DNA of 64,000 nt from Sphingomonadaceae bacterium (GTDB taxonomy: Bacteria > Pseudomonadota > Alphaproteobacteria > Sphingomonadales > Sphingomonadaceae), in contig CANJUF010000003.1 in the NCBI GenBank assembly GCA_947477745.1, positions 1-64,000 on the forward strand, written 5' to 3'. The notes under the pieces were generated by a model. That model had not been told where the DNA came from. It saw only the letters and a program-made list of their open reading frames with translations, and ran no database searches. This document shows positions 19,823 to 38,261 of this stretch, piece by piece. The stretch's first letter is position 1. The number at the start of each line of letters is the position of its first letter. A program made the position numbers and the translations under genes.

Positions 19823-20109
19823 ACCTCGAGTAGCAGCGTGACCTCATCGCCTTCGCCCAGGCCCTCGGCCTTGCGCACTGCCGCCTTTACGGGGAGCATC
19901 CAGCCTGCCTCGCGCGAGGGGAAAACCGAGGTTTGCCAGCTGGTCTCTCCGATTGTTGCCATAACCCTCAGTGAACCGAAGCCGCGCGAGAGGCCTTCGA
20001 GCCGCCGCATCAGTGCGGTCGCCGATAGCGCATCTCCAGCCTCGCCGGAAATCGTCACAAAGTGCCACGTTGCCTTGTCGCCGCCGGTCCAGCGCCAAAG
20101 CCGTGTCAC
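19819..20109 (-). CDS. DUF1905 domain protein
   Basis: A 96-residue protein if GTG 20109 is the start (the track extends to 20283 through unlikely sequence that overlaps the next gene). TRLWRWTGGDKATWHFVTI, then GFGSLRVMATIGETSWQTSVFPS and WMLPVKAAVRKAEGLGEGDEVTL are the small beta-barrel DUF1905 pattern. Function in this family is unknown. Convergent with the Rieske gene (4-nt overlap). Confidence 0.75.
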   Translation of the reverse strand: MTRLWRWTGGDKATWHFVTISGEAGDALSATALMRRLEGLSRGFGSLRVMATIGETSWQTSVFPSREAGWMLPVKAAVRKAEGLGEGDEVTLLLEV

Positions 20110-20255
20110 GCAAGTGATGCGCTCTGTGATTGTCGTTCTCCTCAGCCCTATGGCAAGCGCGATTGCCACGCCGCGCCCTGCCTGCGCAAGCATGCTCCGC
20201 CTTGCTCCGCGCGCGCATCTCGGCCATTCGGTGCGACACGGGATAGGAGAGCCAG

Positions 20256-21059: not shown

Positions 21060-21061
21060 CC

Positions 21062-22510
21062 ATGGAAGCGCTGCACTATCCGATCACGCCTTCGCAAATG
21101 GTGGCGCAAGCGCTCAGCCATAACCTCGAGCGCCCGGTGATCATGCTCGAGGACGGCTCGGTGCTGACCGCGCGCGATATCCGCGATTCGATCAGCCGCT
21201 ATTCGCAGCTGTTCCTCTCGCTCAACCCGAGGCCGCAGCGGGCCGCGCTCTTGTCGAAGAACCGGCCCGAAGTGCCCGGCGTGTCAAATTCGTTTCGCTT
21301 TGCCAATATCATATCGACCTCACTCCATCCGATGGGATCGGTTGAGGACTATCTCTATTCGATCGAGCACGCCCGGATCGACACGCTGGTCTACGACGAT
21401 TCCTTCGAGGACACGGTGCGCGAACTGAAGGCCCGCGCGCCGGGGCTGCGCAACCTGTTCGCGATCGGCAAGGCAGGGATCGGTTCGTCGCTTAGCGAAA
21501 TGGCGAGCCGTTTCGAGCCGGGACCGCTGGTCGGGCGCGCCGGGCCGCCCGACGAAGTGACCGGCGTCGTGTTCACCGGCGGCACCACCGGCAAGCCCAA
21601 GGGCGTGATGAGTACAAATGCTTCGATCGCCATGGCCGCCAACGTGCTGCTTTCGGAGTTCGAGTGGCCCAAGGAAGTGCGCCACCTCGTTTGCTCGCCG
21701 TTGAGCCATGCGGGCGCTTCGGTGCTTACCCCGATCCTGATCATGGGCGGCTCGATGTTCGTGCTGCCCGCGTTCGATCCTGTCTCGTTCATGGAGGCCA
21801 TCGAAAAGCACCGCATCACCACGACGCTGATGGTGCCGACCATGGTGCTGGCGCTGATTGACCATCCGCGCTTTTCCGAGTTCGATCTCTCCAGCCTCGA
21901 ATCGATCTATTATGGCGCATCGGCCTTCCCTCCATCGCGGTTGCGTGAAGCAATCGAGAAACTGGGTCCGATCTTTTTCCAGTTCTACGGCCAGTCCGAA
22001 GCGCCGCTATGCATCACGGTGCTCAAGAAGGGCGAGCATCTGGTCGACGATCCGCTGCGGCTGGCAAGCTGCGGCAGGCCCCATCCGTTCGTATCAGTGG
22101 CATTGCTCGATGACGATGGCAACGAAGTGCTCGATGGAGAGCCGGGAGAGATTTGCGTGCGCGGGCCGCAGGTGATGGCCGGATACCTCGACAGGCCGGA
22201 GGAAACTGCCGAGGCCTTCAAATTCGGCTGGCTGCACACCGGCGATGTCGCCGTGCGCAATCCCGACGGGTTCCTGCGCATCGTCGACCGCAAGAAAGAC
22301 ATGATCGTCTCGGGCGGGTTCAACGTGTTCGCGCGCGAGGTCGAGAATGTCATCGCCGCTCACCCTGGCGTCGCGCAGGTCGCGGTGATCGGGGTGCCGC
22401 ACGAGAAATGGGGCGAGGCGGTTACCGCGATTGTTGTCGCCGCCGATGGCATGGTGCCCGATTCTGCCGATCTGATCGCGATGGTCCGCGAGGAGAAGGG
22501 GCCGGTCTAG
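21062..22510 (+). CDS. Acyl-CoA ligase, truncated by in-frame amber stop
   Basis: An AMP-forming acyl-CoA synthetase (ANL superfamily). The frame from ATG 21062 gives 482 residues with A3 FTGGTTGKPKGVMS near 177-190, A5 FYGQSEAP, A7 HTGDVAVRN and A8 DRKKDMIVSGGFNVFAREVE. The frame stops at TAG (22508-22510) just before the C-terminal A10 region that supplies the catalytic lysine. In-frame sequence after TAG encodes the missing end (see next entry). The second ligase of this window (51322-52863) reads YQAPK where this one reads V-stop-APK, so a CAG-to-TAG change is likely. Adenylation would probably be lost. Confidence 0.85.
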   Translation: MEALHYPITPSQMVAQALSHNLERPVIMLEDGSVLTARDIRDSISRYSQLFLSLNPRPQRAALLSKNRPEVPGVSNSFRFANIISTSLHPMGSVEDYLYSIEHARIDTLVYDDSFEDTVRELKARAPGLRNLFAIGKAGIGSSLSEMASRFEPGPLVGRAGPPDEVTGVVFTGGTTGKPKGVMSTNASIAMAANVLLSEFEWPKEVRHLVCSPLSHAGASVLTPILIMGGSMFVLPAFDPVSFMEAIEKHRITTTLMVPTMVLALIDHPRFSEFDLSSLESIYYGASAFPPSRLREAIEKLGPIFFQFYGQSEAPLCITVLKKGEHLVDDPLRLASCGRPHPFVSVALLDDDGNEVLDGEPGEICVRGPQVMAGYLDRPEETAEAFKFGWLHTGDVAVRNPDGFLRIVDRKKDMIVSGGFNVFAREVENVIAAHPGVAQVAVIGVPHEKWGEAVTAIVVAADGMVPDSADLIAMVREEKGPV

Positions 22511-22733: not shown

Positions 22734-23708
22734 TCAATGCGCATCCCTCGCCAGTCTCGCCGCGATCCACGCGCAGACGAACATCTGCAACTGGTGGAAG
22801 ATCATCAGCGGCAGCACCACCATGCCGACCTGCGCCGGGGCGAACAGCGCGCCGGCCATCGGCACGCCGGTGACGAGGCTCTTCTGCGATCCGCAGAACA
22901 GCAGCACGATGAAGTCCTTGCGGGGCATGGCCATCGCGCGAGATAGCGCGAACATGGTGAGCATCACCACGCCGAGAATCGCGGCACTCAGAGCCAGCAA
23001 CACGGCAAGGTCGGGTGCATCGACGCGCGACCAGATTCCGCCGACCACTGCCGCGCTGAAAGCGGAATAGACCACCAGCAAGATCGACCCGCGATCGACC
23101 GGCATCAACAGCTTCTTGTTGCGCTCGACAAACCCGCCGATCCACGGACGCAGCACATGGCCCGCGACGAAGGGCAGCAGCAGTTGCACGGTGACAGTCT
23201 CGACCGCCTGCCAGTCGAACCCGTCATGCGCCTTGCCGGTGGTCATCAGCAGTCCGACGAGCAGCGGCGTGAGCAATATGCCGAGCAGGTTGGACAACGA
23301 CGCGCTGCATACCGCCGCCGCGACATTGCCGCGCGCGACGCTGACCAGCGCGATCGAGCTCTGCACAGTCGATGACAGCAGCGTCAGGAACAGCAGGCCC
23401 GAAACCAGCAGCGGATCGATCCAGCCGCTAACCAGCCATGCCGTGGCAAGGCCCAAGGCAGGGAACAGGGCATATGTGGTGCCCAAAGTCGCAAGATGCA
23501 GCCGCCAGTTGCCGAGGCCCTGCAGGATTGCCTCGCGCGACAGCTTTGCGCCGTGGAGGAAGAACAGCAGCACGATGGCCACCTTGGACAGCAGCCAGAA
23601 CAGATCGCCCGCTGCCCCGCGCGCCGGCAGCAGCGATGCGACCACGACCGCCAAGGTAAGCCAGACGAGGAACGGATCGATCTTCGGGATGAAGCGGGCA
23701 AAGGGCAT
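22734..23708 (-). CDS. BASS-like transporter (bile acid:sodium symporter superfamily)
   Basis: A 324-residue membrane protein from ATG 23708, which follows AGAGGACC; the longer track frame runs into the divergent gene. About nine to ten hydrophobic helices are visible, opening with PKIDPFLVWLTLAVVVASLLP and carrying FLHGAKLSREA, LLSSTVQSSIALVSVARGNVAAAV and FCGSQKSLVTGVPMA, the core crossing motifs of the SBF-like (Rch1/YfeH) branch. Family members move organic anions or calcium-linked substrates. Position in a catabolic region suggests uptake of a carboxylate, but this is inference. Confidence 0.85.
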   Translation of the reverse strand: MPFARFIPKIDPFLVWLTLAVVVASLLPARGAAGDLFWLLSKVAIVLLFFLHGAKLSREAILQGLGNWRLHLATLGTTYALFPALGLATAWLVSGWIDPLLVSGLLFLTLLSSTVQSSIALVSVARGNVAAAVCSASLSNLLGILLTPLLVGLLMTTGKAHDGFDWQAVETVTVQLLLPFVAGHVLRPWIGGFVERNKKLLMPVDRGSILLVVYSAFSAAVVGGIWSRVDAPDLAVLLALSAAILGVVMLTMFALSRAMAMPRKDFIVLLFCGSQKSLVTGVPMAGALFAPAQVGMVVLPLMIFHQLQMFVCAWIAARLARDAH

Positions 23709-24972: not shown

Positions 24973-25755
24973 TCACGCCAGAGTTACCCCGCCATCCACC
25001 GGCAAGACTACACCGTTGATATAGGCTGCAGCTGGCGAAAGCAGGAACAGCACGGCGTGGGCCATATCCTCGGGATAGCCGAGACGGCCAACCGGGACGC
25101 GGGCGGCGAGATCCTGCATCGCGGGGCTTGCCAGCATGGGTTCTATACGTGGCGTAATGGTGATCCCCGGCGCCACCGCATTGACGCGCGGCATGCCGCC
25201 CAGCCGCGTCGCCATATGGCGGGTGAGGCCTGCAATCGCGGCCTTGGCGGCGGGATAGAAGGCCGAGACGGTCTTGCCGCTGCCTTGCAGGTTGCCGGCA
25301 ATCGAACTGATGTTGACCAGGCTCGCTGCAACGCCAACGCAATGCGACAGCCAGCTTTTGGCAACCGTCTCCATGCTGCCGACGGCTTCGAGCAGGCGAT
25401 CGGCGAATGGACCTTGCGAAACGCTGCGCGGGCCTGCGTTGTTGACGAGATAGTGGCACGGTCCGAGCGATAGCGTCTCGCGCCACGCACGCTCGACTTG
25501 CTGCCTATCGAAAACGTCGACGATGACGGCAATCGCCTTGCCGCCTGCCGCCGCGATCTCGTCGACCGTCGCCACTGCGCCGGGGCCGTCGATATCCCAC
25601 ACCGCGACCGTAAGCCCCGCCTTGGCCGCACCGATCGCCGTCGCCTTGCCGATGCCGCTCGCCGCTCCGGTGACGCAGACCATCTCTCCAGGCGCGAAGC
25701 CCAGCGCGCCCATATCGTAGAGCGGGCCGTGCTTTGGTCCCGTGTAGCCTGTCAT
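24973..25755 (-). CDS. Short-chain dehydrogenase/reductase
   Basis: A classical SDR of 260 residues and the last gene of the long minus-strand array. The cofactor motif is TGAASGIG near residue 30, LVNNAG near 104, the catalytic Ser in NISSIAG near 149 and Tyr-x3-Lys in FYPAAK near 167-171. Asp after the second strand (VWDID) favours NAD. It lies 9 bases after the UGSC-family gene, so it is probably co-transcribed. It would oxidise a hydroxyl or reduce a ketone of the pathway substrate. Confidence 0.9.
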   Translation of the reverse strand: MTGYTGPKHGPLYDMGALGFAPGEMVCVTGAASGIGKATAIGAAKAGLTVAVWDIDGPGAVATVDEIAAAGGKAIAVIVDVFDRQQVERAWRETLSLGPCHYLVNNAGPRSVSQGPFADRLLEAVGSMETVAKSWLSHCVGVAASLVNISSIAGNLQGSGKTVSAFYPAAKAAIAGLTRHMATRLGGMPRVNAVAPGITITPRIEPMLASPAMQDLAARVPVGRLGYPEDMAHAVLFLLSPAAAYINGVVLPVDGGVTLA

Positions 25756-25764
25756 GCCCCCGTG

Positions 25765-27528
25765 TCAGCCCGCCGCGATCTTGCGCGTCACCGAATGGGT
25801 TCCGCCAAAGCAGTACTGCGAGCGGCCCGCCGAGGCGCCAACGACGAAATATTCGAAGCAGTCGGCGCTTGGCATCACCGAAACCATGGTTTCAGGAGCG
25901 TCTTCCAGCCACGACAGTTCCGGGTGCGCTACATGGAAGCCGTTGTAATCCTTGTTGAGCATGACATCGCGGAAGGTCATACGGGTGCGGCGATGGACGG
26001 CCTCGGCAATGTCCTTCGGCCCCCAGCCGGCCTTGGCGAAGACGGCGGCGTGATCCGGCGCCAGCAGCATCAGGTTGGAGAAGGTGCCGTGGAAGGGATA
26101 GCCTGCCGAGAGCGGCGCGTTGGTCTTGACCAGCCACACGCCGTGCGAAGGAGCGCCGCAGGTGTTGGCGGTCAGCGTCGCCAGCGTTTCGACCAGCGCT
26201 TCGGGATCGGTGTTCTTGAAATCGAAGAATTCGGTCATCCCATAAGGCACGTTGACGGTGACGGTCGAATCCTCGGGCGCGAAACCCTGCTGCACCCGCC
26301 AGCTTTCCCACGGGGTGAGGTCCTCGTTCTCGGCGACGCAGGCCGAAAACTTCATCGGCGTGCCGATGGTGTCCATGTCCGAGATGCCCGGATAGGAGAG
26401 GCCGACGTTCATCATCACCAGCCGCAGGGTGCGGCCGATGGCGACATTGACCTGGCTGATCGAGCCGGGGCCCAAGGCGCAGATGCCGCGGTTCATGCCG
26501 ATCTCGTCGGCAATCGCGCCCGAAACCAGCACGATCGGTGCCTGCGGCCCGGTAGACATCGCCCAGGTGCGCAGTCCCATCGAGGGATCGAGTATGCACT
26601 CCATCATCGCCATGATCACCGGCATGGCCTCGGGGCGGCATCCGGCCATGACCGCGTTGGCGGCGATCTTGCGCACCGTGCCCACGCCCATGCCGGGAGC
26701 GAACAGGCCGACTACATCGCTGCCGTCGCGACCCGAAGCGGCGATCATCGCCTCGACCTTGTCGTGCGTTGGCGGGATCAGCGGCAGGCCGTCGCTCCAG
26801 CCGGTCTGGACAAAACGGGTCTGCATGGCATCGAAAGCATCGAGCAGGTCGGCCCCCTTGAACACCAGTTCAGGCGCTGCGTCGCGCACGATCTGGTCGA
26901 ACTGGGGCAGCACTTCGAGGATCGGGCGGTCGACCGTCAGCGCCTCGATCGCCTCGTCGAGCGAATCGGCGACCATCTGGCGGATTTCCTGCGCCGTCTT
27001 GTTCGAGAAACAGTGCGGCACGATGAGCGGGACAGCCTCCGGAACACCGAAGGTCTTGGTCGAAAAGCGCGAATCCTCGTCGAAGATCGCGGCGGTATAA
27101 GCGATCGCGGGAATGCCGCGCCGTTCCAGCTCGCACAGGTCGCGCATCAGCCAGGCGGTACAACTGCCGCAATCGGCAGTGGTGCAGATGGCCACATCCG
27201 CCTCGCGCTCGAGCATGTCGAGCTGACCCGGCGAAAGGAAGCGGTTCACGCCGCCCTGTTCGCCGATCACATCGATGAAGCTGAGGCCGATGAAACGCTG
27301 CGAGAGCAGGTCGCGCGCGGCATCGAGCGCATGCGTGCCGTTCTGCTTGCCGTTCCAGTAGAGCGCCACGCGCTTGCCATTGAGGTCGGCGGGGCGCTTC
27401 GCGGGCGGATCGCGCATCGCATCGTCGAGATCGGCCTGCGATTCGGCGACAGGATTGACGATGGTCAGCGTGGCTTGGGTCTGGTTGCCCGGACTCCTGG
27501 CTTCGGCATCGATGCTTGCGGTCGCCAT
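25765..27528 (-). CDS. UGSC-family (CGSC-motif) protein with large C-terminal domain
   Basis: 587 residues from ATG 27528 (GGGAG upstream); the track start 27567 adds unlikely residues. The N-terminal part (about 45-200) matches the UGSC (seleno)protein family: GKRVALYWNGKQNG, then TTADCGSCTAW with Cys120-Gly-Ser-Cys123 in place of Sec-Gly-Ser-Cys. A further region of nearly 400 residues follows (VFKGADLLDAFDAMQTRFVQ ... SDGLPLIPPTHDKV ... VMAGCRPEAMPVIMAMM) that I do not recognise beyond this family. Function of UGSC proteins is not established; a redox or thiol-transfer role is inference from the motif. It is co-directional with a NifU-like gene. Confidence 0.75.
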   Translation of the reverse strand: MATASIDAEARSPGNQTQATLTIVNPVAESQADLDDAMRDPPAKRPADLNGKRVALYWNGKQNGTHALDAARDLLSQRFIGLSFIDVIGEQGGVNRFLSPGQLDMLEREADVAICTTADCGSCTAWLMRDLCELERRGIPAIAYTAAIFDEDSRFSTKTFGVPEAVPLIVPHCFSNKTAQEIRQMVADSLDEAIEALTVDRPILEVLPQFDQIVRDAAPELVFKGADLLDAFDAMQTRFVQTGWSDGLPLIPPTHDKVEAMIAASGRDGSDVVGLFAPGMGVGTVRKIAANAVMAGCRPEAMPVIMAMMECILDPSMGLRTWAMSTGPQAPIVLVSGAIADEIGMNRGICALGPGSISQVNVAIGRTLRLVMMNVGLSYPGISDMDTIGTPMKFSACVAENEDLTPWESWRVQQGFAPEDSTVTVNVPYGMTEFFDFKNTDPEALVETLATLTANTCGAPSHGVWLVKTNAPLSAGYPFHGTFSNLMLLAPDHAAVFAKAGWGPKDIAEAVHRRTRMTFRDVMLNKDYNGFHVAHPELSWLEDAPETMVSVMPSADCFEYFVVGASAGRSQYCFGGTHSVTRKIAAG

Positions 27529-27553
27529 TATGTTCGTCTCCCGTGTGACAGCG

Positions 27554-27790
27554 TCAGGCCGGCACAATCTCCAGCGTGACTTCAGGCGCCTTGCGCGCCA
27601 GCCATGCGCGCATCATCGCTTCGAGTTCGGCCTGAGGCAAGGTGCAGACGCCGTCATCGCAGTCTGCCACGTCGCCGGGCCGATAGGCAAGCGTGATCGT
27701 CGCCGCGGTTTCCTCGATCAGTTCGATCGCACCGCCATCGCTCGCGGCGATGCGGGCGAAACTGGCGAGAAGCTGCTGGGCGATCGGCAC
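27554..27790 (-). CDS. Small NifU C-terminal-domain-like protein
   Basis: A 78-residue protein, DGGAIELIEETAATITLAYRPG ... VCTLPQAELEAMMRAWLARKAPEVTLEIVP. The beta-alpha pattern follows the NifU/Nfu iron-sulfur scaffold domain, but the usual CxxC is replaced by Cys44-x4-Cys49 (CDDGVC), so cluster binding may be altered or lost. It lies between the UGSC gene (25 bases) and the isochorismatase-fold gene (4 bases). A partner role for the CGSC protein is a guess from position. Confidence 0.6.
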   Translation of the reverse strand: MPIAQQLLASFARIAASDGGAIELIEETAATITLAYRPGDVADCDDGVCTLPQAELEAMMRAWLARKAPEVTLEIVPA

Positions 27791-27794
27791 GCCT

Positions 27795-28418
27795 TTAGCC
27801 CGGCCATGCGCTGACGATATCGTCCACCGTCGACAGCGTGGTGATGAACGACAGGGTGTTGCGGATCACGGGCTGGGCATATTCGCTGGGGAAGCCCGAA
27901 ACCGCATCGCGCGGGATGATGACGGTGTAATTGTTGTTCACCGCCTCGATCGACAGGCCAAGGATCGCGACATTGAGCGAGACGCCCGCGACGATCACGG
28001 TGTCGATGCCCTTGTTGCGCAGGCGGCGGTCAAGCTGGTTGTCGGCCATCGGATGCAGTCCGTGGACGCGCACCGATAGCAGATCGCCTTCTTGCCAGAC
28101 TTCGGGGCAGGGGGTGTCGCCATCGGGATTGTGGGATGGACGGTCTGCCGAGGGGCCTGCGCCGCCGGTGTAGAGCCGGCAGTTCGTGCCCGCGCCATAG
28201 CGGGTGGGCGACGTGTCGGCGAGACAATGCACCACCGGCGCGCCATGCGCCCGCGCGGCCTCGGCCAGCTTCGCGCAGTTGGCGATCACGCCCACTTCCG
28301 CCGCGCCCGATGCCAGCGGGCTGCCCGCGGCTAGATCGCCGATGATGCCGCGCTGCACTTCGGACAGCAGCAGGGCGACCTTGCCCTGCTTGAGCAGCGG
28401 TGCGATATCGAATGCCAT
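27795..28418 (-). CDS. Isochorismatase-fold protein with degenerate catalytic triad
   Basis: A 207-residue cysteine-hydrolase-fold protein. The three catalytic positions appear changed: Asp is Glu20 (LLSEVQRG), the Lys region reads LLSVRVHG (Arg117) and the nucleophile Cys in the GVxxxxCV motif is Ala151 (GVSLNVAILG). True isochorismatases can lack the Cys, but the loss of all three is unusual. Fold identity comes from VALLLSEVQRGI, HGAPVVHCLAD, NKGIDTVIVAGVSLNV and IPRDAVSG. It could be a binding or structural subunit. Tightly packed with neighbours. Confidence 0.78.
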   Translation of the reverse strand: MAFDIAPLLKQGKVALLLSEVQRGIIGDLAAGSPLASGAAEVGVIANCAKLAEAARAHGAPVVHCLADTSPTRYGAGTNCRLYTGGAGPSADRPSHNPDGDTPCPEVWQEGDLLSVRVHGLHPMADNQLDRRLRNKGIDTVIVAGVSLNVAILGLSIEAVNNNYTVIIPRDAVSGFPSEYAQPVIRNTLSFITTLSTVDDIVSAWPG

Positions 28419-28444
28419 TGTCGTTTCTCTCCCGTGAAATCCGT

Positions 28445-29296
28445 TTATTCGAACAGCGCGAAGTAGCGCGTTTCGAGGCTTATGCGCGGCACTGGCTGCG
28501 GCTGCGTTTCGTCGGCAATCGCGACATGCAGGGTTTTGAAATCATCGCCAAGCGCGGAATCGAAACCGATGAATACCAGCAGTTCCTGCGGCGTCATGTC
28601 GGGGAAATACCACCAGTCATGGCGCGGACTGAAACGGGCCCCGCTCGACTGGTAGATCAAGTCGCGCTCGGCCGTCTTCATGTGATATTCGATGGGCACC
28701 ATGTCGCCGGGCTTGACCGTGCGCCCGTCGCACATCGCCAACGGAAAATCCTGCGGCGGCGGGCTCAGCACCTGCCAGCACTGATACATGACATAGCGGC
28801 TGAACGGCGCGGGCAGGGCCCCGTTGAGCTCGAGCGTTTCCTTGAGCTGCACCTCGGATTCGCGCGTATCATAATCGACATGCGGCCAGCCTGCGGGGGT
28901 CATCGCCTTGTCGTTGCGCAGCGCCGGGCTGTAGCGCACCGTAGAGGCGTGAAGCGGCAGCACTTCGCGCGCCTCGCTCAATCGCAGGATCAGCGGGATC
29001 GTCTCGGCCCAATAAGAGCGCAGGGCATCGGACTGGGTGAGCAGGCCCGGCGGCGCCATGAGCTCGTCGAGCCGGTTAACGACGGTCGCGCTGGGATGCG
29101 CGACCAGCTCGAAGCCCTCGCAATGCAGCGAAGGCACCTGACCGGCGGCCCGGCCATTGCGGAAGCGGGTACAGCGCTTGTCGAACACCTCGTCGCCCAG
29201 AATCCGCGCGGTGAACTCGACATGCAGCATGTCGAGATCGCCGCGCAGATAAGGAAGCGTGGCGGTAAGGTCTTGCCGGTTAACCTCTGCGTCCAT
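28445..29296 (-). CDS. CmcJ/NvfI-family (AsaB-like) oxidoreductase
   Basis: 283 residues from ATG 29296, preceded by AAGGAGG. The track start 29416 reads into the neighbouring BVMO. The family signature is visible: HASTVRYSP, then WPHVDYDTRESEV and RYVMYQCWQVLSPPPQDFPLAMCDGR, and near the end FPDMTPQELLVFIGFDSAL. Relatives (CmcJ, GA4 desaturase, AsaB, NvfI) are 2-oxoglutarate/iron dependent hydroxylases, desaturases or O-methylation partners. The VDYD and later His (RHDWWYF) may bind iron; this is inference. It lies between BVMO and isochorismatase-like genes. Confidence 0.75.
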   Translation of the reverse strand: MDAEVNRQDLTATLPYLRGDLDMLHVEFTARILGDEVFDKRCTRFRNGRAAGQVPSLHCEGFELVAHPSATVVNRLDELMAPPGLLTQSDALRSYWAETIPLILRLSEAREVLPLHASTVRYSPALRNDKAMTPAGWPHVDYDTRESEVQLKETLELNGALPAPFSRYVMYQCWQVLSPPPQDFPLAMCDGRTVKPGDMVPIEYHMKTAERDLIYQSSGARFSPRHDWWYFPDMTPQELLVFIGFDSALGDDFKTLHVAIADETQPQPVPRISLETRYFALFE

Positions 29297-29322
29297 CACA
29301 ACCTCCTTGGCCGACAAAGCGT

Positions 29323-31284
29323 TCAGCCGACTACCAGGTCCTTGCCGAACGTCGGTTGCAGCGCCGGGTCGGTGTGCGGCGGCAATTCCGCCGCCGGGTT
29401 GTTCAGCCAGCGCCACATCCGCCGGTAATCGACCGGTCCATTGACCGACGAGCGGTTGCCGTTCTGGTAGTAGCTGTTCGCCCGCTTATCGAGGTAGACC
29501 ATCCCCTTTTCCGATTCGTCGAGGATGTCGGCGAACTTCCAGTAGGCTTGCTCGGTAACCTCGACGCTGTGCTGGCCGTTCTCGATCAGTCCGGCGATGG
29601 CGCGCACGGCGAACTGCGCGGTGATCTCCAGCAGGTCGACCACGGTGAAGCCGCCGAAGTTGTTCGAATTTGGACCGTAGCACATGAACAGGTTGGGGAA
29701 TTGCGGCACCATGGCGCCGAGATAGGCGCGCGGGCCGTCCTTCTCCCAGATCTTCTCGATGCGTTCGCCGCCGCGCCCGCGCACTTCCATCGGCCAGAGA
29801 TATTCGTTCGCCTTGAAGCCCGTAGCGAACAGGATGACGTCGACTTCGTATTCCTTGCCGCCGGCGACGATGCCCTTGGGCGTGATCCGCTCGATGTGAT
29901 CGCTGACCAGTTCCACATCGCCGCGCGCCAGGGCGTCGAGCACGCTCTCGTTGGTGTCGACTCGAATCGGGCGCGAGGCCATTGGCGGGAAGTTGGGGAT
30001 CATCTGCGGGATCAGATCCGGGCGCGAGGCCAACTTGCGCTCGACAAAGGCGACGCAGGCATCGCGCAGCATCTTGTTGATCGGGCTGACGGCATGGGGA
30101 TCGTCGAAGTCCGGATCGACCTTGAGCGCTCCCGAACCACCCGGTGCGACCAGCGCCGCGACGCGGAAACGCACGAAATTGCTGTGGAACGGGAAGTTGC
30201 GATCGAGCCAGAGCGACTGCTCGGGCAGCGGCTTGAGATAGGTAAGATCCTCGTAGAGCCAGTTCGCCTGCCGCTGGAACATGAAGGTCTGCGCCGCCAG
30301 CCTGCCGATTACGGGCGCGGTCTGGTAACCAGAGGCGCCAGAGCCGACGATGGCGACGCGCTTGCCCGTAAGGTCGTATCCTTCGGGCCACTCGGCGCTG
30401 TGGCAGGCAAGGCCCTCGAAGCTGTCGAGGCCCTCGATCTGGGGCATCTGCGGGCGCGAGAGGAAGCCGACGCACGAGATAACTGCGTTGAACTGCGCCG
30501 TCTCCGCGCCGTTCGGCCCCTGGGTTCCCAGGGTCCAGAGCTTGGCGGCGTCGTCCCAGGTCATCTGCAGGACTTCGGTGTTGAACTGGATGTTGTCCCG
30601 AATCTCGAAATTGTCGGCGATCCAGTTGAAATATTTCTGGTTTTCGTCGCGGGGGCAATAGCCCCAAGGGAACGGATAGTCATATCCGAACAGGTGGGTG
30701 TAGCCTCGGCTCGGGGTATCTACGCGTGCGCCGGGATAGCGGTTCTCGTACCACGATCCGCCGACACTGGGGTTCTTTTCGAACACCACGAAGGCAATCC
30801 CCGCGCGCTTGAGCTGAACCGCAGCGTTGAGGCCGGAGATGCCGGTGCCGATGACTGCGACCTTGAAGTCCCGCGCCGCTTCGGGAGCCTTTCCAGCCTT
30901 CCAGTTCACGCCGCGAGCCCATGGATCGAGCGCGGTTTCTTCCTGCCAGATCGGGAAATCCTCCTCGGGAATATCCCGGCCTGCGGTCAGCGAAAGTGCG
31001 GTGCGCATGCGCTCCTTCGGACCCAGATCGAGTTCGCCAGCGCCGCTGTCGCGATACTTCTTTAGGAAGTCGGCGGCCATCTGCCGGATGCGCTTTTCGT
31101 GCTCCGGGTCAGCCAGTTCGCTGCCGACGGTGAATTTGCCCGCGGAACCGGGGACCATTTCCTTGATGCTCTCGTCGCCAGTCAGTTGATAGAGCAGCCC
31201 GCGAAGCACCATCGGCGAGGCATGCTGCATCGCGTCTTCGATGGTTTCGTCACTGGCGGAAAGAAGCTCGGTTCTTGTGGTCAT
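29323..31284 (-). CDS. Flavin-containing Baeyer-Villiger monooxygenase (HAPMO-like)
   Basis: 653 residues from ATG 31284 (ACAGGA upstream). FAD-binding GxGxxG is VIGTGISGLNAA at about 144-155; the Baeyer-Villiger fingerprint FxGxxxHxxxWP is FEGLACHSAEWP (289-300); the second Rossmann motif is VAIVGSGASGYQ. WYENRYPGARVD is typical. An extra N-terminal domain of about 130 residues, as in 4-hydroxyacetophenone monooxygenase, precedes the FAD domain. The enzyme inserts oxygen next to a ketone to form an ester or lactone. Ketone substrate unknown. Confidence 0.9.
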   Translation of the reverse strand: MTTRTELLSASDETIEDAMQHASPMVLRGLLYQLTGDESIKEMVPGSAGKFTVGSELADPEHEKRIRQMAADFLKKYRDSGAGELDLGPKERMRTALSLTAGRDIPEEDFPIWQEETALDPWARGVNWKAGKAPEAARDFKVAVIGTGISGLNAAVQLKRAGIAFVVFEKNPSVGGSWYENRYPGARVDTPSRGYTHLFGYDYPFPWGYCPRDENQKYFNWIADNFEIRDNIQFNTEVLQMTWDDAAKLWTLGTQGPNGAETAQFNAVISCVGFLSRPQMPQIEGLDSFEGLACHSAEWPEGYDLTGKRVAIVGSGASGYQTAPVIGRLAAQTFMFQRQANWLYEDLTYLKPLPEQSLWLDRNFPFHSNFVRFRVAALVAPGGSGALKVDPDFDDPHAVSPINKMLRDACVAFVERKLASRPDLIPQMIPNFPPMASRPIRVDTNESVLDALARGDVELVSDHIERITPKGIVAGGKEYEVDVILFATGFKANEYLWPMEVRGRGGERIEKIWEKDGPRAYLGAMVPQFPNLFMCYGPNSNNFGGFTVVDLLEITAQFAVRAIAGLIENGQHSVEVTEQAYWKFADILDESEKGMVYLDKRANSYYQNGNRSSVNGPVDYRRMWRWLNNPAAELPPHTDPALQPTFGKDLVVG

Positions 31285-31386
31285 TGGTATCCTGTCCCTT
31301 GGTTCTTGATCAGACTTTACAGAAAATGCGGGCGAGGGACAGGGATTGCGGACTGTCACGCGCACGCGCGGTTGCGGTGCTACCGG

Positions 31387-32772
31387 CTACTCCTTCTTGA
31401 GCGGCCGCAGCGGTGTCGAGAGCGACTGCTGGAGCCACGTGCCCTCGTCGGCAAGGATTGCCGCCTGCCGCTTCACCTGCCGGTGCAGCAGCCGCAGCAG
31501 GGCTTCGTCATGCTCCGGGCCGGCTTCGGCGATGAACGCGACCAGCATTTCGCTCGCCTCGCCTTCCGAGTCCGGCCGCCGCCCGATGAGATCGGCGGTT
31601 TCACGGACATATTCGCTCGCGAAGGTCTCGCGCACGCCCTCCGCGCGGCGCAGATAGCGCAGCGCCAGCCGGATCTTGTCCTTGCGGTACGCGGCGAACT
31701 CATCGTCCGTTCCGAGCGATTGCACCATCGTGTCGAGCGCTTCGAGCGAGTTGCAATAGCGCGTGCTGACCGGCGCAGGCAGCGCGTATGGCTCCAGCGC
31801 AATGCCCATCGATTCAGCGATGCCCTCAAGCGCGTCCTTCAAGGAGATCGCGTGCCAGATCAGGTATTCGTGATAGTCTTCCTGATCCTTCGGCCTGGCC
31901 AGGTCATCGGCGATCTGGAGCGGCGTGAACAGCGAGAAGGCGATGTGCTGGAAGCGAACATGGTCGATATTGATCGGCCGGCTGCCGCGCGCCTCGCAGA
32001 GTTTGTAGAACCCCTCGGGATCGTCGAACCCTTCGACGCGCTCGCGCGAGCGCAGCGCAGAAAAGTCGGTATGCCGGTCGCCCACGCTGACCAGCTCGAA
32101 ATCGAGCATCGCGGTCAGCTCGTTCCCCTCGAAGATGAACTGCCCCGCATCCATGGCGATTACGCAAGGCGGATCGAGCGACTCTGGCACATTGCGGTCG
32201 AGCCACTTGCGCACGAACTCGATGTCAGGAGAGGGCAGCCGCTCGCCGGTGAGGTAAACCCCTTCGGCGTCGCGGTAGGCGGAAAGCGTGGTTTCCTTCG
32301 GACCGGCCGGCATGGCAGCGCCTGCGGCAATGATCAGCGCGGGATCGAGCTCGTGGATCTTGCGCATCTGGTCGGCAAGCTGTTCGCGCAGCTGCGTGCG
32401 GTCTGCTTCGCTGGCGGCGGTCGACAAGTTGGGACGGCCCGGCACGAGGTCCATGACCATCGCGGGAACCTCTTCGATGAAGCCATAGAGATGCGGCACC
32501 TTGATGCCGTTCTCCTCGAACACCTTGTGCACGCGCGCTTCGTAGGCCAGCGGCCGCGCCGGCCAACGCCCGCCGCGCGCGCCGCGCACATAAAGGCTCA
32601 CCCGTCCCTTCGCGCTTTGCGCATCGACGAACCAGGCAGGGCGCCAGCGTCCTTCGCGGCGCAGCGACTGAACCGGCCCGATCTCGCGCTCGATCCATGC
32701 GCGCACAATGCCGTCGTCGGCCTGATCGACCAGACCTCGGGGCATCGACATTTCGACTTGGGGTTCGCTCAT
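31387..32772 (-). CDS. Atypical aminoglycoside-phosphotransferase-fold kinase (first)
   Basis: A 461-residue APH/ACAD10-type kinase-like protein. It has the nucleotide-binding lobe (GRWRPAWFVDA; ARVHKVFEENGIKVPHLYGFI) and LDFELVSVGDRHTDFSAL, matching the DFG-like Asp in the metal loop. The catalytic HGDxxxxN motif reads AMDAGQFIF: Asp is kept, His is Ala and the Asn is gone. It is a paralogue of the next gene and shares an extra C-terminal region of about 120 residues. Positioned with acyl-CoA dehydrogenases, it may phosphorylate a hydroxyacyl-CoA; that is inference. Confidence 0.78.
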   Translation of the reverse strand: MSEPQVEMSMPRGLVDQADDGIVRAWIEREIGPVQSLRREGRWRPAWFVDAQSAKGRVSLYVRGARGGRWPARPLAYEARVHKVFEENGIKVPHLYGFIEEVPAMVMDLVPGRPNLSTAASEADRTQLREQLADQMRKIHELDPALIIAAGAAMPAGPKETTLSAYRDAEGVYLTGERLPSPDIEFVRKWLDRNVPESLDPPCVIAMDAGQFIFEGNELTAMLDFELVSVGDRHTDFSALRSRERVEGFDDPEGFYKLCEARGSRPINIDHVRFQHIAFSLFTPLQIADDLARPKDQEDYHEYLIWHAISLKDALEGIAESMGIALEPYALPAPVSTRYCNSLEALDTMVQSLGTDDEFAAYRKDKIRLALRYLRRAEGVRETFASEYVRETADLIGRRPDSEGEASEMLVAFIAEAGPEHDEALLRLLHRQVKRQAAILADEGTWLQQSLSTPLRPLKKE

Positions 32773-32794
32773 CTGTGCGCCTTCCGCATGCCGA

Positions 32795-34147
32795 TCAGAT
32801 CGGGATCAGCAGTTCGGTGAGCCCCTTGATGTAGTAGGAGCCGGGCACCGCGATGAGGTATCCCTGACGGCAGCAACGGGCGTGAAGCACGCGTAGCAGG
32901 TCTTCGTCCCGCTCGCTGTCCGATGCCATGACCAAATCCTCAAGTAGCAGGTCTGCTTCGCCGGTTGACCCGACCGGCTTGCCCAGAAGCCGTTCGGCGT
33001 CCGCCAGATAGGCATGGTCGAACGCTTCGCCATACTTGCTCAGCATGTCGAGATGATCGGCGATGCTGCGCTCAACGCGGCGGTGATAAGCGCCGATTTC
33101 GTCAGCCGCCGGATCGGCGTCTAGCGCGGCCTTGAGCGCGAAGATTGCCTCGCTGGAGTTAGTGGCCGCTGGCTCGGGCATATCGGGCATCGTCAGCGCC
33201 AGCCCCATGCATTCGCCGATCGCCTCAAGTGCCTGCTTGAGCTCCCAGATCACCCAGCTCTGGTATTCGACATAGTCGGCATTGGGCGAAGGCGCGGCAA
33301 GGAAGCGCTCCATGCAGATCGCCGAGGCCAGCGCGCCCGAAAGCGAGAAGGCGGCGGTGTGGAACCTTACCTTCTCCAAATCGACCTTGCGCCCCGAAGT
33401 TTGCTCGTAAAGCTTGTAGAAATCAGGCAGATGGCCGAGGTCTTCCCACTGGCCCCTGATCCGCATCGCGGCGAGGTCCATCATCGGATCGCTCAGCGCA
33501 GACAGTTCGAAATCCATCATCGCGGTGAGCCGGTCGTCTTCGTACAGGAATTGCCCAGCGTCGCAGGCGATAACGCGGGCAGGCTCGCTGGCGGGCGGCG
33601 CGTTGCGCATCACCCATTGCGCGGCAAACTCCAGCCCCGGATCGCTTCGTGTGCGCTGCTGCGCGTAGTTATCGTAGAAATCCTGGAACAGCGACAGGGT
33701 TACGGCGCGCGGCTCTTGCGGCAGGGACAGCCCGGCCTCGGCGAAGGGCTGCGGATCGAGCGCGTGCATTGCAGTCATCTGCTCGGCGAGTTGTCGCAGC
33801 ACGGACTGGCGGTGCGCTTCGTTCTGGCTGGTGCCAAGGTTGGGCGCACCGCTGACCTTGGCCATGACAGTGCCGGGCAATTCGTCGATGAAGCCGTAGA
33901 CCTGGGCCACGCGCACACCGCCCTTTTCGAGCAGCTCGTGGATCGCGTGCTCGCGGCGCAAGCCGTAAGGAAGGAAGCTCTCGGTGCGTTCGCCGCGAAC
34001 ATAGCATTGCAGCGCCTCGCCGCCGCGCTCGGCATCGACGAACCAGGCCGGGCGCCAGCGCCCTTGCCGTTCGATCCGGGTTACGCGGGCACCGAGGTTC
34101 TTTTCGAACCAGCGGGCGATCGCGGCTTCGCTCTCCTCGTCGGTCAA
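32795..34147 (-). CDS. Atypical aminoglycoside-phosphotransferase-fold kinase (second)
   Basis: About 450 residues if TTG 34147 is the start, which follows GGGAGAGG by four bases; the track start 34264 overlaps the acyl-CoA dehydrogenase. Shares with the preceding entry GRWRPAWFVDAERGG, VYGFIDELPGTVMAKVSGAPNLGTS, CDAGQFLYEDDRLTAMMDFELSALSDPMMDLAAMR. As there, Asp is kept but the flanking His and the Asn are replaced (CDAGQFL). The conserved pattern in both copies argues for a distinct subfamily rather than decay. They lie in tandem, 22 bases apart. Confidence 0.8.
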   Translation of the reverse strand: MTDEESEAAIARWFEKNLGARVTRIERQGRWRPAWFVDAERGGEALQCYVRGERTESFLPYGLRREHAIHELLEKGGVRVAQVYGFIDELPGTVMAKVSGAPNLGTSQNEAHRQSVLRQLAEQMTAMHALDPQPFAEAGLSLPQEPRAVTLSLFQDFYDNYAQQRTRSDPGLEFAAQWVMRNAPPASEPARVIACDAGQFLYEDDRLTAMMDFELSALSDPMMDLAAMRIRGQWEDLGHLPDFYKLYEQTSGRKVDLEKVRFHTAAFSLSGALASAICMERFLAAPSPNADYVEYQSWVIWELKQALEAIGECMGLALTMPDMPEPAATNSSEAIFALKAALDADPAADEIGAYHRRVERSIADHLDMLSKYGEAFDHAYLADAERLLGKPVGSTGEADLLLEDLVMASDSERDEDLLRVLHARCCRQGYLIAVPGSYYIKGLTELLIPI

Positions 34148-34166
34148 CCAGCCTCTCCCGGCTTGC

Positions 34167-35417
34167 TCAGGCGCGCTTCGGCCCTTTGGGTACTTCGCGG
34201 AACGGCACGCCCTTGTCACCCGAAGCCTCGCGCGGCATGCCGAGGATACGCTCGGCCACGACATTGCGCGAAATTTCGGTGGTGCCGCCGCCGATGCAGG
34301 AAATCTGGCGCATCAGGAAGTTCATGCCGACCGCATCGGTCGCGGCTTCCTCCTCCTCGTCCCAGACGCTGGCATTGGACCCTGCGAGTTCGAAGGCAAT
34401 GGTCGAGCGGCGCACGCTGGCGACGCCGCGGAACAGACGGTCGATTGCCGACATGTCCTTGTTGGCCTTGGTCGCCGCATCGGCAATGCGGCCCTGCAAA
34501 GCGCGGGTGACGACGCCGAGTTCGCGGTGTTCGCCAATCAGTTCGCGCGCCGACGGATCGTCGATCTTGCCCGATTTGCGGGCAATGGCGACGGGCGAAT
34601 CCTCGTGACCGGCGCTTTGGCTCAACCCTGAAGGGTAGGTGACGTAGGGCGAGTTGTGCCCCATGCGCTCGTGGAACATCCAGCGGGTGCCAATCGTCCA
34701 GCCGCCGTCGACGTCGCCAACTCGGTCGCTGTCGGGAATGCGAACGTCAGTGAAGAATTCCTGACAAGCCTCTGATTCGCCGTTCAAACGCACGATGCGC
34801 TGGATCTCGACGCCTTCGGCGCGCAGCGGAACGAGGAACACGGTCATGCCCTGGTGCTTGGGCACATCCCAGTTGGTGCGCGCCAGGATGATCCCCCAGT
34901 CGGCCCACCATGCGCGCGAGGTCCACACCTTCGAACCGTTGAGGATCCAGTGATCGCCTTCGCGCACCGCCGCAGTAGTGATGCCAGCAACGTCGGAGCC
35001 GCCGCCGGGCTCGGAAAGAAGCTGCACCCAGACTTCGTCGCCCTTGAGGATCGCGGGCAAATGCGCGGCCTTCTGCTCGGCGGTGCAAAATTCGAGGATC
35101 GTCGAGGCACAGGGATTGAAGGTCGGGACGGCAAAGCGCGAAGGGTATTCGTGTCCCGCAAGTTCCTCGTTGAACGCGCGGTTATGCTCGGGAGACAGGC
35201 CAAGCCCGCCATATTCCTTCGGCATGCAGATCCCGGCAAATCCGCCGTCGAAGATCTTGCGCTGCAAGGCGCGGTCGCGGGCGACGGCGACAAGCTCCTC
35301 CTCGTCGTCCTTGCAATGCTGGGTGCGGTCCCATGGCTGGAGCGGACCGAGATTGGCCTTGATCCATTCGCGTGCCCGAAGCCGGAACTCTTCCACCGGT
35401 TCCATACCCGTGCTCAT
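34167..35417 (-). CDS. Acyl-CoA dehydrogenase (large subunit type)
   Basis: A 416-residue FAD-dependent acyl-CoA dehydrogenase from ATG 35417 (GGAG upstream). Motifs: PKEYGGLGLSPEHNRAFNEE, WVQLLSEPGGGSDVAGITT (FAD/substrate site), WILNGSKVWTSRA and IGGGTTEISRNVVAERILGMP at the C-terminus. It overlaps the following acyl-CoA dehydrogenase by 4 nt (ATGA). Such pairs in actinobacterial and sphingomonad catabolism form alpha2beta2 heterotetramers acting on ring or side-chain CoA thioesters. Heteromer formation is inferred from the overlap. Confidence 0.92.
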   Translation of the reverse strand: MSTGMEPVEEFRLRAREWIKANLGPLQPWDRTQHCKDDEEELVAVARDRALQRKIFDGGFAGICMPKEYGGLGLSPEHNRAFNEELAGHEYPSRFAVPTFNPCASTILEFCTAEQKAAHLPAILKGDEVWVQLLSEPGGGSDVAGITTAAVREGDHWILNGSKVWTSRAWWADWGIILARTNWDVPKHQGMTVFLVPLRAEGVEIQRIVRLNGESEACQEFFTDVRIPDSDRVGDVDGGWTIGTRWMFHERMGHNSPYVTYPSGLSQSAGHEDSPVAIARKSGKIDDPSARELIGEHRELGVVTRALQGRIADAATKANKDMSAIDRLFRGVASVRRSTIAFELAGSNASVWDEEEEAATDAVGMNFLMRQISCIGGGTTEISRNVVAERILGMPREASGDKGVPFREVPKGPKRA

Positions 35418-36550
35418 GCCGCCATCTCCTTGTCGATCTGCATTTGTGCGAGCCACCGGCGATGGTCGCCCGGGGTGCCATAAAGGAGGCGGTTGAGCGT
35501 GACCCGCCTCAGGAAGAAGTGGAGATCATGCTCGTAAGTCACGCCAATACCGCCATGAATTTGCACACAGTCCTGCGCCAGTTCGACCCCGTGCTCGCCA
35601 ATATAGGCCTTGGCGGAGCTGACCGTTTCGGCAGCGCGCGAGGTGCCGTCGGCAAGCGCGTCGGCGGCGGAATCGCACACTGCGTGGCTCGCTTCGAGCC
35701 ATGACTTCATGTCGGCGAAGCGGTGCTTGAGCGCCTGGTAGGAGGCAAGTGCGCGCCCGAAAGTGAAGCGTTCGAATGCCCAGTCGGTGGTCATCGCGAA
35801 GGCCGATTCCATCGCGCCGACCGATTCGGCGCAAAGCATGACACAGGCGTTGCGCACCTGCTCGGTCATCTGCGCCTCGGCTTGACCGAATGCGCCGACC
35901 AGGGCTGATGCCGGGACCCGCACCGCATCGAAAGTCACCGCGCCGAACTTGCGCGAGACATCTATCGCCTTCAGGTTCTTGATGGAGACGCCGGACGTTG
36001 AGGCGGGAACCAGCACCTGCGTGGTACCGCTGTCGCTGCGCCCGGAAACGAGGAAGTACGTGGCCTGCCCAGCCGATTCGACCGGCTTCACAGCGCCCTG
36101 AATGACGAGTTCCTCGCCGTCGCGGGTGATGGTCACGGTGGCCTCGCCGGACTGCTGCCACGGCGCAAAGCCCAGACAAACCGAGGCAATCGCGCTGCTC
36201 GTCATGATCGCTTCGAGCGCATCGGCATGGGCCTCTCCGCCCACATCGGAAAGCGCGCTTGCAACGACATTGCAATCGACCAGCGGGCCGGGTGCTGAGT
36301 GCCGGCCGAATTCATAGGCGATCAGCGAGAGATCGACGATCCCGCGCCCGCTGACGCTGCCGCCGCCCATGTCTTCGCTGACCAAGGGCATGATCCAGCC
36401 GAGCTCCGCGCCGCCGGTCCAGTATGCCGGTTCAAAACCCGCCGCGCTGTCGCGGTTCTTGCGCTGGCGATCCAGCGGAACATGATCGGCGAGGTACCGC
36501 GCGGTGGTGTCGCGCAGCAACTGCTGGTCCGAGGTCAGCTCATGCCACAT
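35414..36550 (-). CDS. Acyl-CoA dehydrogenase (small subunit type)
   Basis: A 378-residue acyl-CoA dehydrogenase. Visible features: WHELTSDQQLLRDTTARYLADHVP, LGWIMPLVSEDMGGGSV, RFTFGRALASYQALKHRFADM (FAD-binding Arg/Gln) and QDCVQIHGGIGVTYEHDLHFFLRR. It lacks a complete strong FAD loop WxLNGxKxW and has the shorter beta domain of subunits in heteromeric ACADs. First ACAD translated; overlaps the downstream ACAD start by 4 nt. The HpcH-type lyase gene lies 82 bases upstream. Confidence 0.9.
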   Translation of the reverse strand: MWHELTSDQQLLRDTTARYLADHVPLDRQRKNRDSAAGFEPAYWTGGAELGWIMPLVSEDMGGGSVSGRGIVDLSLIAYEFGRHSAPGPLVDCNVVASALSDVGGEAHADALEAIMTSSAIASVCLGFAPWQQSGEATVTITRDGEELVIQGAVKPVESAGQATYFLVSGRSDSGTTQVLVPASTSGVSIKNLKAIDVSRKFGAVTFDAVRVPASALVGAFGQAEAQMTEQVRNACVMLCAESVGAMESAFAMTTDWAFERFTFGRALASYQALKHRFADMKSWLEASHAVCDSAADALADGTSRAAETVSSAKAYIGEHGVELAQDCVQIHGGIGVTYEHDLHFFLRRVTLNRLLYGTPGDHRRWLAQMQIDKEMAA

Positions 36551-36632
36551 CCGTTTTGCCTCTCCATTGGGCTATTTATCGAGTCGATACTGCATGGCAC
36601 AGGCGCGGTGCTCGCGCCAGCCGGTCTGATGG

Positions 36633-37475
36633 TCATAGCCCCGCGCGCGCCAGGGTACGCTGTGCCTGCTTGAGGTGCGGCGCATCGATCATCTGCCCGT
36701 CGATCGAGAGCACGCCGGCGTCGGGCGAAGCGGCGAAGGCATCGACGATAGCCTGTGCGTGGGCGACGACTTCGGGTGAAGGCGTAAAGGCGGCATTGAT
36801 CACAGGCACCTGCGCGGGGTGGATCGCCATCATCCCGGTGAACCCATCGGCTGCGGCCCGTTCGGCATAGCGGCGCAGCGCGTCGAGGTCCTTGAAATCG
36901 GGGCTGATCGTCTCGATCGCTTCCACGCCCGCGGCATGGGCGGCAAACAGGGTCATCGAGCGTGCGAGTTCGAGCGGCGGCGTGAAGGTTCCGTCCTCGT
37001 TCCTTGCCCGGGTCGCGCCGATCGCGGCAGGCAGGTCTTCCGCCCCCCAGGTCAGTCCGCAGATGCGCGGGCTGGCGCCGGCATATTCACCGAGGCGGAA
37101 CATCGCCAGCGGGGTTTCGGTGACCAGCGGGAACACGGCGCAGTCCGCATCGCCGATAAGAGCTTCAAGCTCGCGTATCGAGGCAAGTCCTTCTGCCTTG
37201 GGCAGGCAGATGCCGTCGGGCTTGTGCGGCATCACCGCGGCAAGATCATCCTGCGCCATGTCGCCCTGCAGCGGGTTGATCCGCACGAACAGCTTCACCG
37301 TGGTACGCGCGCGGTCTAGGAACTGGGCAATCGCCTCGCGCGCCATGTCCTTGTGCGCCGCCGAAACCGAATCCTCCAGATCGAGTATCAGCGCATCCGC
37401 GCCCGATCCAAGCGCCTTTTCCATGCGCTCGGGCCGGTCTCCGGGGACGAACAGCATCGAGACCAATCGCATCAT
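36633..37475 (-). CDS. HpcH/HpaI-family CoA ester lyase (CitE-like)
   Basis: A 280-residue TIM-barrel lyase from ATG 37475 (AAGGAA upstream; the track start 37823 enters the TetR gene). MRLVSMLFVPGDRPERMEKALGSGADALILDLEDSV is the CitE/malyl-CoA lyase opening; VRINPL, GICLPKAEG, FPLVTETPLAM and TWGAEDL are the metal/substrate motifs, and MMAIHPAQVPVINAAF ends the barrel. It cleaves or forms C-C bonds of 3-hydroxyacyl-CoA such as malyl- or citramalyl-CoA. First gene of the minus array, divergent from TetR. Confidence 0.9.
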   Translation of the reverse strand: MMRLVSMLFVPGDRPERMEKALGSGADALILDLEDSVSAAHKDMAREAIAQFLDRARTTVKLFVRINPLQGDMAQDDLAAVMPHKPDGICLPKAEGLASIRELEALIGDADCAVFPLVTETPLAMFRLGEYAGASPRICGLTWGAEDLPAAIGATRARNEDGTFTPPLELARSMTLFAAHAAGVEAIETISPDFKDLDALRRYAERAAADGFTGMMAIHPAQVPVINAAFTPSPEVVAHAQAIVDAFAASPDAGVLSIDGQMIDAPHLKQAQRTLARAGL

Positions 37476-37492: not shown

Positions 37493-37530
37493 GTTTGTGC
37501 CTGATCGCGCGTGCGTTGCGCGCGACAAAC
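37493..37530. promoter_or_regulatory. Nested inverted repeat between lyase and TetR genes
   Basis: In the 108-bp divergent spacer, TCGCGCG (37505-37511) and CGCGCGA (37519-37525) form a perfect 7-bp repeat, flanked by GTTTGT and ACAAAC. A good candidate operator for the adjacent TetR regulator, but the GC-rich core could also form by chance. Confidence 0.45.
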
Positions 37531-37583: not shown

Positions 37584-38261
37584 ATGAGCGCTCGTCAGTC
37601 CGGCTACGCGCTGCGGCGCAAACGATCGAGCGGGGCCGATGCCGCGTCGGGCGAACGCGCCCAGGAAACCCGCGGCGCAATCATCGCGGCGGCGCGCGAG
37701 GTGCTGCTGAAGAAAGGCTATGCCGCGACCCGGGTGGAAGACATTATCCAGCGGGCGGGCATCTCGCGCCCGACTTTCTACCGCCATTTCAAGGACAAGT
37801 TCGAGGTCGCCAAGGCCTATCACGCACTATCGGGCGATGCGACGTTGGGGCCGTGGGGCGATCTTGCCCATGTCGACATGAGCGACCTCGCGGCGATCCG
37901 GCGGTGGATGGAAGTGCTGCTCGAAACCTTCGCGGCGCGGCGCGACGAGCTGGTCGTCTGGTCGGAAATGAGCGCGATCGAGCCCAATTACCTGATGCGC
38001 GTGCCGCGCCAGATCCCGGCTCTGATTGAAGTGCTGGCTGCGAACATCCCGGCCTTCGCCCGCGCGCAGGCGCAGGCGCCGAGCGGTGAGCGCGAACCCG
38101 GTCCGGTATGGGCCGAATCCTATTTGCTGCTCGAACACCTGTCCTATTATTGCACCTGGCTGGCGCTGGGAAAGCACGTCATCTCGAAGGAGCAATCGGT
38201 CGATTATTTCTGCGAGCGCTTGCACCGCTTTGCCGGACGGTATGGGGGTAAAGCGGGTTGA
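37584..38261 (+). CDS. TetR-family transcriptional regulator
   Basis: A 225-residue repressor from ATG 37584, preceded by AAGGAGGGG. The helix-turn-helix TRGAIIAAAREVLLKKGYAATRVEDIIQRAGISRPTFYRHFKDKFEV spans about residues 29-75, the classical TetR DNA-binding domain; the rest is the ligand domain. A basic leader of 25 residues precedes it. It is divergent from the catabolic array and probably controls it in response to a pathway CoA ester or acid. Confidence 0.92.
   Translation: MSARQSGYALRRKRSSGADAASGERAQETRGAIIAAAREVLLKKGYAATRVEDIIQRAGISRPTFYRHFKDKFEVAKAYHALSGDATLGPWGDLAHVDMSDLAAIRRWMEVLLETFAARRDELVVWSEMSAIEPNYLMRVPRQIPALIEVLAANIPAFARAQAQAPSGEREPGPVWAESYLLLEHLSYYCTWLALGKHVISKEQSVDYFCERLHRFAGRYGGKAG

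Follow-up and report, generated by a model that had tools for sequence, protein, structure and literature searches.

Within a 64,000-nucleotide stretch of a Sphingomonadaceae bacterium genome (contig CANJUF010000003.1, positions 1 to 64,000, hereafter the window; host genome 3.03 Mb), eleven genes follow one another on the minus strand between positions 24973 and 37475. In array order, they encode an HpcH/CitE-type lyase, two acyl-CoA dehydrogenases (ACAD2 and ACAD1), two APH-fold kinases (APH2 and APH1), a Baeyer-Villiger monooxygenase (BVMO), a CmcJ-type oxidoreductase, an isochorismatase-fold protein, a small NifU-like protein, a UGSC-family protein and a short-chain dehydrogenase/reductase (SDR). 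A preliminary description of this DNA had reported such a one-direction array, and we found every gene at its position, strand and rank. The genes are closely packed, with successive intergenic distances of 82, -4, 19, 22, 102, 26, 26, 4, 25 and 51 bp, the two ACAD genes sharing the four bases ATGA (35414-35417). A promoter scan found none, and terminator-like sites were fewer than the shuffled mean.

Conservation of the array was assessed by scanning genome contigs with the UGSC protein, which yielded 20 loci. In the synteny check that had been proposed, the array order is retained in two of these loci only, L018 and L019, both from Novosphingobium metagenome-assembled genomes (MAGs), which also keep the flanking Rieske, hydratase, ligase and transporter genes. 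At a dS of about 0.4-1.1 between the window and these relatives, the compared array genes are under purifying selection (dN/dS 0.05-0.25, against L019 or L018); a full-length APH1 orthologue is present in neither locus. Retained gene order and purifying selection together make the array one inherited, but rare, unit. It is narrowly distributed, in a few Novosphingobium genomes. Alternatively, eleven catabolic genes with nothing in common might have come to stand in a row by chance, as the array is intact in three known genomes only and its components turn up elsewhere beside other genes. Retention of the order at this divergence, purifying selection, short gaps and ATGA coupling all argue against such a run, which we consider very improbable; our confidence that the eleven genes form a genuine catabolic operon is high. 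No described pathway with the same gene set was found in the literature searched, as the preliminary description had supposed.

The most unusual part of the array is its cysteine-type UGSC/Unknown_1-NifU module. The UGSC gene (25765..27528, minus strand) encodes a 587-aa fusion of a UGSC domain (residues 41-205) to Unknown_1 (U1, about 222-587). The domain matches PF24696 well above threshold (6.7e-32; 111.4 bits against a cut-off of 25), and reaches 88 bits against the curated cut-off of 125 of NCBIfam NF041046, as a divergent member of the family. It carries C120-G-S-C123 in place of selenocysteine (Sec)-GSC, so that the CGSC protein named earlier is indeed there. Next to it, the NifU C-terminal-like protein (27554..27790, minus strand) bears an invariant CxxxxC (C44, C49) rather than the cluster-ligand CxxC. 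PF01106 matches the window protein weakly on its own (E 0.18), and 8 of 17 members of its family (best 2.2e-5). A solved-structure search with the NifU profile returned no match.

The two genes belong together well beyond the array. Full-length UGSC fusions occur at 19 loci, in Alphaproteobacteria and Actinomycetota, and the NifU-like gene lies directly upstream on the same strand in 17; in L034 it is nearby on the opposite strand, and L032, from the same species, lacks it. Outside L018 and L019 the neighbours of the module differ from the array and are mostly CoA-catabolic. The array that the preliminary description took as the unit is borne out as co-directional and conserved, but the most widely recurring part is the NifU-UGSC pair, which it listed only in passing. 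Carriers of the module include the culturable Sphingosinicella sp. LHD-64 and Sphingomonas formosensis. Of 14 module loci that lack the array, 8 have ACADs where 1.9 would be expected, several of these loci sharing neighbourhoods, and one GntR/FCD-type regulator family recurs in 12 module loci (two members typed). The fusion orthologues are 67-90% identical, with the CGSC invariant, and the whole protein has a mean column identity of 78%; identity of the NifU-like partner goes down to about 30-77%. In 29 of 30 loci Unknown_1, separate or fused, is no more than about 1.5 kb away from UGSC, and the two stand side by side in all 18 of the wider regions. A fusion of UGSC with Unknown_1 had been described in 2008 (PMC2398784); this near-constant pairing was not found in the literature searched. 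The genome of the window holds a second UGSC/Unknown_1 pair (L011, G000:C31:29629-31009), split, of the Cys type, near acyl-CoA ligases and without a NifU-like gene.

Cysteine is the exception in this family. Among 240 Alphaproteobacteria genomes, 21 contain UGSC, in 55 copies and up to eight per genome; 53 copies have one in-frame TGA, and both exceptions come from the genome of the window. The NifU-linked clade is always Cys, even in genomes with SelA: all 19 aligned members (the window protein plus 18) read CGSC, and a SelA match was obtained in 9 of 16 module-carrying genomes (8 full-length, 1 partial). G120 and G163, with the TGA in their UGSC, have SelA; the window's genome, G193 and G046, with Cys in theirs, do not. 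The window UGSC, with its CGSC and no SelA in the genome, lacks the marks of a selenoprotein. In a U1 tree the 19 clade proteins form one group (SH-like support 0.81, midpoint root; some 'fused' labels in this tree may stem from read-through of a TGA stop). A UGSC search of 250 genomes of the order gave relatives outside the window that are only about 30% identical.

The UGSC domain was modelled with AlphaFold2 at high confidence (pLDDT 93.8) as five beta/alpha repeats in which the CGSC opens a helix; the best structural matches of the model are flavodoxin-like, at a TM of about 0.5. Solved-structure searches with the UGSC sequence and the UGSC profile found no match. The 2008 suggestion of a thioredoxin-like oxidoreductase (PMC2398784) has the UxxC motif in its favour, but the five repeats make a non-thioredoxin topology and the flavodoxin-like matches point the same way, leaving this assignment little credit. 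Profile comparison hints at a different kinship. When PrdB-like proteins passing the PF07355 cut-off were aligned to UGSC with hhalign, the match had Prob 76.5 and E 2.2e-5 (1.1e-3 in reverse), with the Sec/Cys UxxC in register; the best of 74 controls reached 1.6e-3. PF07355 (GRDB) itself matched none of the 19 clade members, even at E 5. These profiles are suggestive of a distant relation between UGSC and GRDB/PrdB-type selenoproteins. Separately, 23 of the 240 Alphaproteobacteria genomes carry PrdB-like UPxC proteins (L083-L102) that match GRDB; a genome often has several, and most of the proteins have an in-frame TGA.

What might the module do? The Sec of GrdB and PrdB attacks a carbon-nitrogen bond in the alpha position to a carbonyl, and for this reason thiol-based reductive cleavage is the most natural guess, by analogy, for UGSC/U1. 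Electron transfer or the holding of a cluster would be conceivable roles for the NifU-like CxxxxC protein. We tentatively suggest that the CGSC thiol attacks or reduces a bond between carbon and a heteroatom, and that the NifU-like protein serves as its redox partner or carries a cluster. Alternatively, NifU-UGSC/U1 may be a general thiol redox or repair system, acting for instance on thiols or Fe-S enzymes damaged in oxygenase-heavy catabolism, and catalyse no pathway step. The module does travel between unlike neighbourhoods, oxygenases are common near it, and NifU-like and CxxC-type motifs fit redox or cluster work. On the other hand, the very high conservation of the full fusion, including the large U1, suggests a specific enzyme, and the multiple UGSC copies per genome and local GntR/FCD regulators suggest substrate-linked roles; a repair system thus seems unlikely to us, if a serious contender. 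A catalytic NifU-UGSC/U1 module would be a mobile accessory enzyme: a fused, Cys version of a two-part, usually Sec-dependent enzyme, distant kin of the GRDB/PrdB Sec subunits.

The preliminary description had read the array by the logic of ACAD10/11 and Lva: a BVMO and hydrolysis would yield a hydroxyacyl-CoA, which a kinase would phosphorylate and an ACAD would convert by eliminating the phosphate. ACAD10/11 and LvaC have in common a catalytic Asp (D753 in ACAD11) and an Arg/His set close to the active site (R626, H634, R637), residues that are linked to the handling of phosphoacyl-CoA (PMC12440821). The window ACADs (ACAD domain matches of E 1e-20 to 1e-23) have Gly (ACAD1) and Tyr (ACAD2) at the Asp position, and both lack the RIHHCMR set; Asp and RIHHCMR are present in the control loci L079-L082. 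ACAD2 matches ACAD11 only weakly. The top solved match of both chains is 6wy8: ACAD1 (34167..35417, minus strand) is nearest to Tcur3483 (6wy8_B, 7.9e-42), the Glu of its FHERMG aligning with the Glu of NHERIG, and ACAD2 (35414..36550, minus strand) to the partner subunit Tcur3481 (6wy8_A, 1.7e-22). Two different chains are thus encoded together, each nearest one Tcur subunit, which is the heteromeric type. We also searched for the pattern ADGPDEVH, which we take to mark the ACAD10/11-type catalytic Asp context. It picked out ACADs in G154 and G205, which carry RIHHCMR; with the exact degenerate pattern, no motif of this type was found in the window's genome. L079-L082 are Sphingomonadales Lva-like units with ADGPDEVH ACADs, three of the four having an HGD-type APH kinase nearby.

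The kinases proved as atypical as had been claimed. APH2 (32795..34147, minus strand; PF01636 4.2e-11) and APH1 (31387..32772, minus strand; PF01636 3.1e-16) are 37% identical and belong to a D-x-GQF or D-x-PQF subfamily that replaces HGDxxxxN: in the alignment the loop is two residues shorter and the catalytic Asp is retained, and the His and Gly of HGD and the Asn are lost in both, so that neither shows the HGD...N of the ACAD10/11 type. Their number also varies, with two in the window, one in L019 (an APH2 orthologue, 82% identical; APH1 is absent) and none in L018. What is left there, on one contig, is 34 residues from the beginning of APH2 and 22 from the end of APH1, with stop codons in the relic. 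As the other nine array genes of L018 are intact despite this loss, the pathway can dispense with the kinases, unless the L018 MAG contig is wrong; they would be lineage-specific add-ons outside the pathway core. A solved-structure search with kinase 1 gave no match, and no ACAD was detected at 1e-8 near D-x-GQF kinases in the regions retrieved from other Sphingomonadales genomes.

An ACAD10/11- or Lva-like route can still point to the APH-fold kinases that adjoin the ACADs in the array, and to a separate APH subfamily with an intact HGD...N (HGDAGPGNF) that lies beside a heteromeric-type ACAD pair in L070-L072. Adjacency of an APH kinase and an ACAD alone, however, is no proof of such a pathway. 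Since the window ACADs have neither the catalytic Asp nor RIHHCMR, the proposed logic is unsupported, and the lost HGD and Asn, the kinase-free L018 array and the lack of an ADGPDEVH-type motif by the exact degenerate pattern all speak against it. To judge from these residues and gene losses, the kinase-based phosphorylation route is largely ruled out, and we would be surprised if it operated here. A second cluster in the genome of the window (L073:104-3529, G000:C36) combines the start of a D-x-GQF-type kinase gene, 44% identical to APH2 and placed at a contig end, with genes for a luciferase-like monooxygenase and for a BVMO that shares 47% identity with that of the window. At L065:1177-3406, D-x-GQF kinases and luciferase-like monooxygenases stand next to genes that look by eye like CofE, CofD and CofC of F420 biosynthesis.

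The remaining genes complete the array. The HpcH/CitE-type lyase, encoded by the first gene (36633..37475, minus strand; PF03328 2.7e-35), has RipC as its nearest NCBIfam model, at 169.6 bits under the RipC cut-off of 375. The 653-aa BVMO (29323..31284, minus strand; flavin monooxygenase (FMO)-like, 3.2e-23) carries the FxGxxxHxxxWP fingerprint (FEGLACHSAEWP) and two GxGxxG motifs of type I enzymes, in keeping with its earlier description as HAPMO-like; its PDB matches are steroid and phenylacetone monooxygenases. The CmcJ/NvfI-family oxidoreductase (28445..29296, minus strand) scores 169.5 bits with NF041278 (CmcJ_NvfI_EfuI), cut-off 80. The isochorismatase-fold protein (27795..28418, minus strand; PF00857 2.8e-21) is degenerate, as noted before: Ser and Ala stand at the catalytic Asp and Cys positions (by eye from motif context, the Lys placement being uncertain), so that the Asp-Lys-Cys triad is missing. 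Its SEVQRG and NVA(I/L) are retained in L018 and L019, with a dN/dS of 0.10-0.16. The last gene encodes the SDR (24973..25713, minus strand; Pfam adh_short_C2 2.5e-38), also retained in both loci. The TetR-family gene (37584..38261, plus strand; PF00440 4.1e-15) is divergent from the first gene, as reported, starting 108 bp from the HpcH start, and inspection of the region between them revealed an inverted repeat, TCGCGCG-N7-CGCGCGA (37505..37525), a possible TetR operator. On the SDR side, the array adjoins an SBF-like transporter gene (22734..23708, minus strand; PF13593 5.5e-91) and genes for a Rieske oxygenase, an enoyl-CoA hydratase-like protein and an acyl-CoA ligase (18761..22510, plus strand). 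A molybdopterin oxidoreductase gene (38333-40501) also adjoins the array; the same is found near D-x-GQF kinases in L066, L068 and L074. Further catabolic genes lie at 45479-59508: TauD, SDR, a second FMO/BVMO-like gene, Rieske oxygenase, ligase, amidohydrolase, thiolase, a ChsH2-like OB protein and a double CoA-transferase.

All together, we read the array as an operon for the breakdown of a bulky, CoA-activated carboxylic acid that includes a two-part thiol/selenol enzyme, related to GRDB and present here as a Cys variant; this is the best reading that we can offer, and we hold it with about even confidence. The flanking ligase would make the CoA ester, ACAD1 and ACAD2 would form one heteromeric dehydrogenase with the catalytic Glu on ACAD1, the hydratase, SDR and HpcH lyase would shorten the chain, and the BVMO and CmcJ-type enzyme would oxygenate the skeleton. 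A terpenoid or a steroid-like compound as substrate would be a guess. Degradation of steroids or bile acids (Chol11), brought to mind by the SBF-like transporter and the name of one MAG, was considered and set aside, as no test supports a specific substrate. A broader and rather doubtful proposal is that CoA-linked catabolism employs an unrecognised aerobic relative of the glycine/proline reductase Sec machinery, with UGSC and Unknown_1 as its two parts; in the clade described here, Cys may have replaced selenium, the parts become fused and a NifU-like partner been recruited.

Several points weigh against a catabolic operon with a GRDB-related enzyme. The complete array is found in three related genomes only, two of them MAG loci. 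As Sec-type UGSC/U1 loci have no constant catabolic neighbours, the argument for a catabolic role draws mainly on the Cys clade, several of whose loci are syntenic to each other and not independent. Among solved structures, none matches UGSC above a TM of about 0.5, and the U1 part was modelled at low confidence, which made a fold search with the full 587-aa model uninformative. For the kinship with GRDB, the match is one of remote profiles, and its scores differ between the two directions. UGSC now has a near-constant partner in Unknown_1, a likely distant family in GRDB/PrdB, a never-Sec Cys clade and an operon context, and this makes its function testable without selenoprotein expression.

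Compared with known systems, the array resembles ACAD10/ACAD11 and LvaA/LvaC in having an APH-fold kinase adjoining an ACAD, but differs in lacking the catalytic Asp, the Arg/His set, HGD and Asn. It resembles the Tcur3481-Tcur3483 heteromeric ACAD in its two different chains and in the Glu at the HER position of the large chain, although sequence similarity to that pair is low, and its BVMO is like HAPMO-like type I enzymes in N-terminal extension and fingerprint. With the UGSC selenoproteins and the 2008 UGSC/Unknown_1 fusion (PMC2398784; PF24696), the window protein has domain and motif in common, whereas its clade has Cys for Sec, a linked NifU-like gene, a defined operon and the form of one tight clade over Alphaproteobacteria and Actinomycetota. 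Finally, UGSC may be distantly akin to the GRDB/PrdB Sec subunits (PF07355), with its UxxC at a helix start after a strand, in register by profile, but it is set apart from them by its Unknown_1 partner, its aerobic-type catabolic neighbourhoods and the lack of a Pfam GRDB match.

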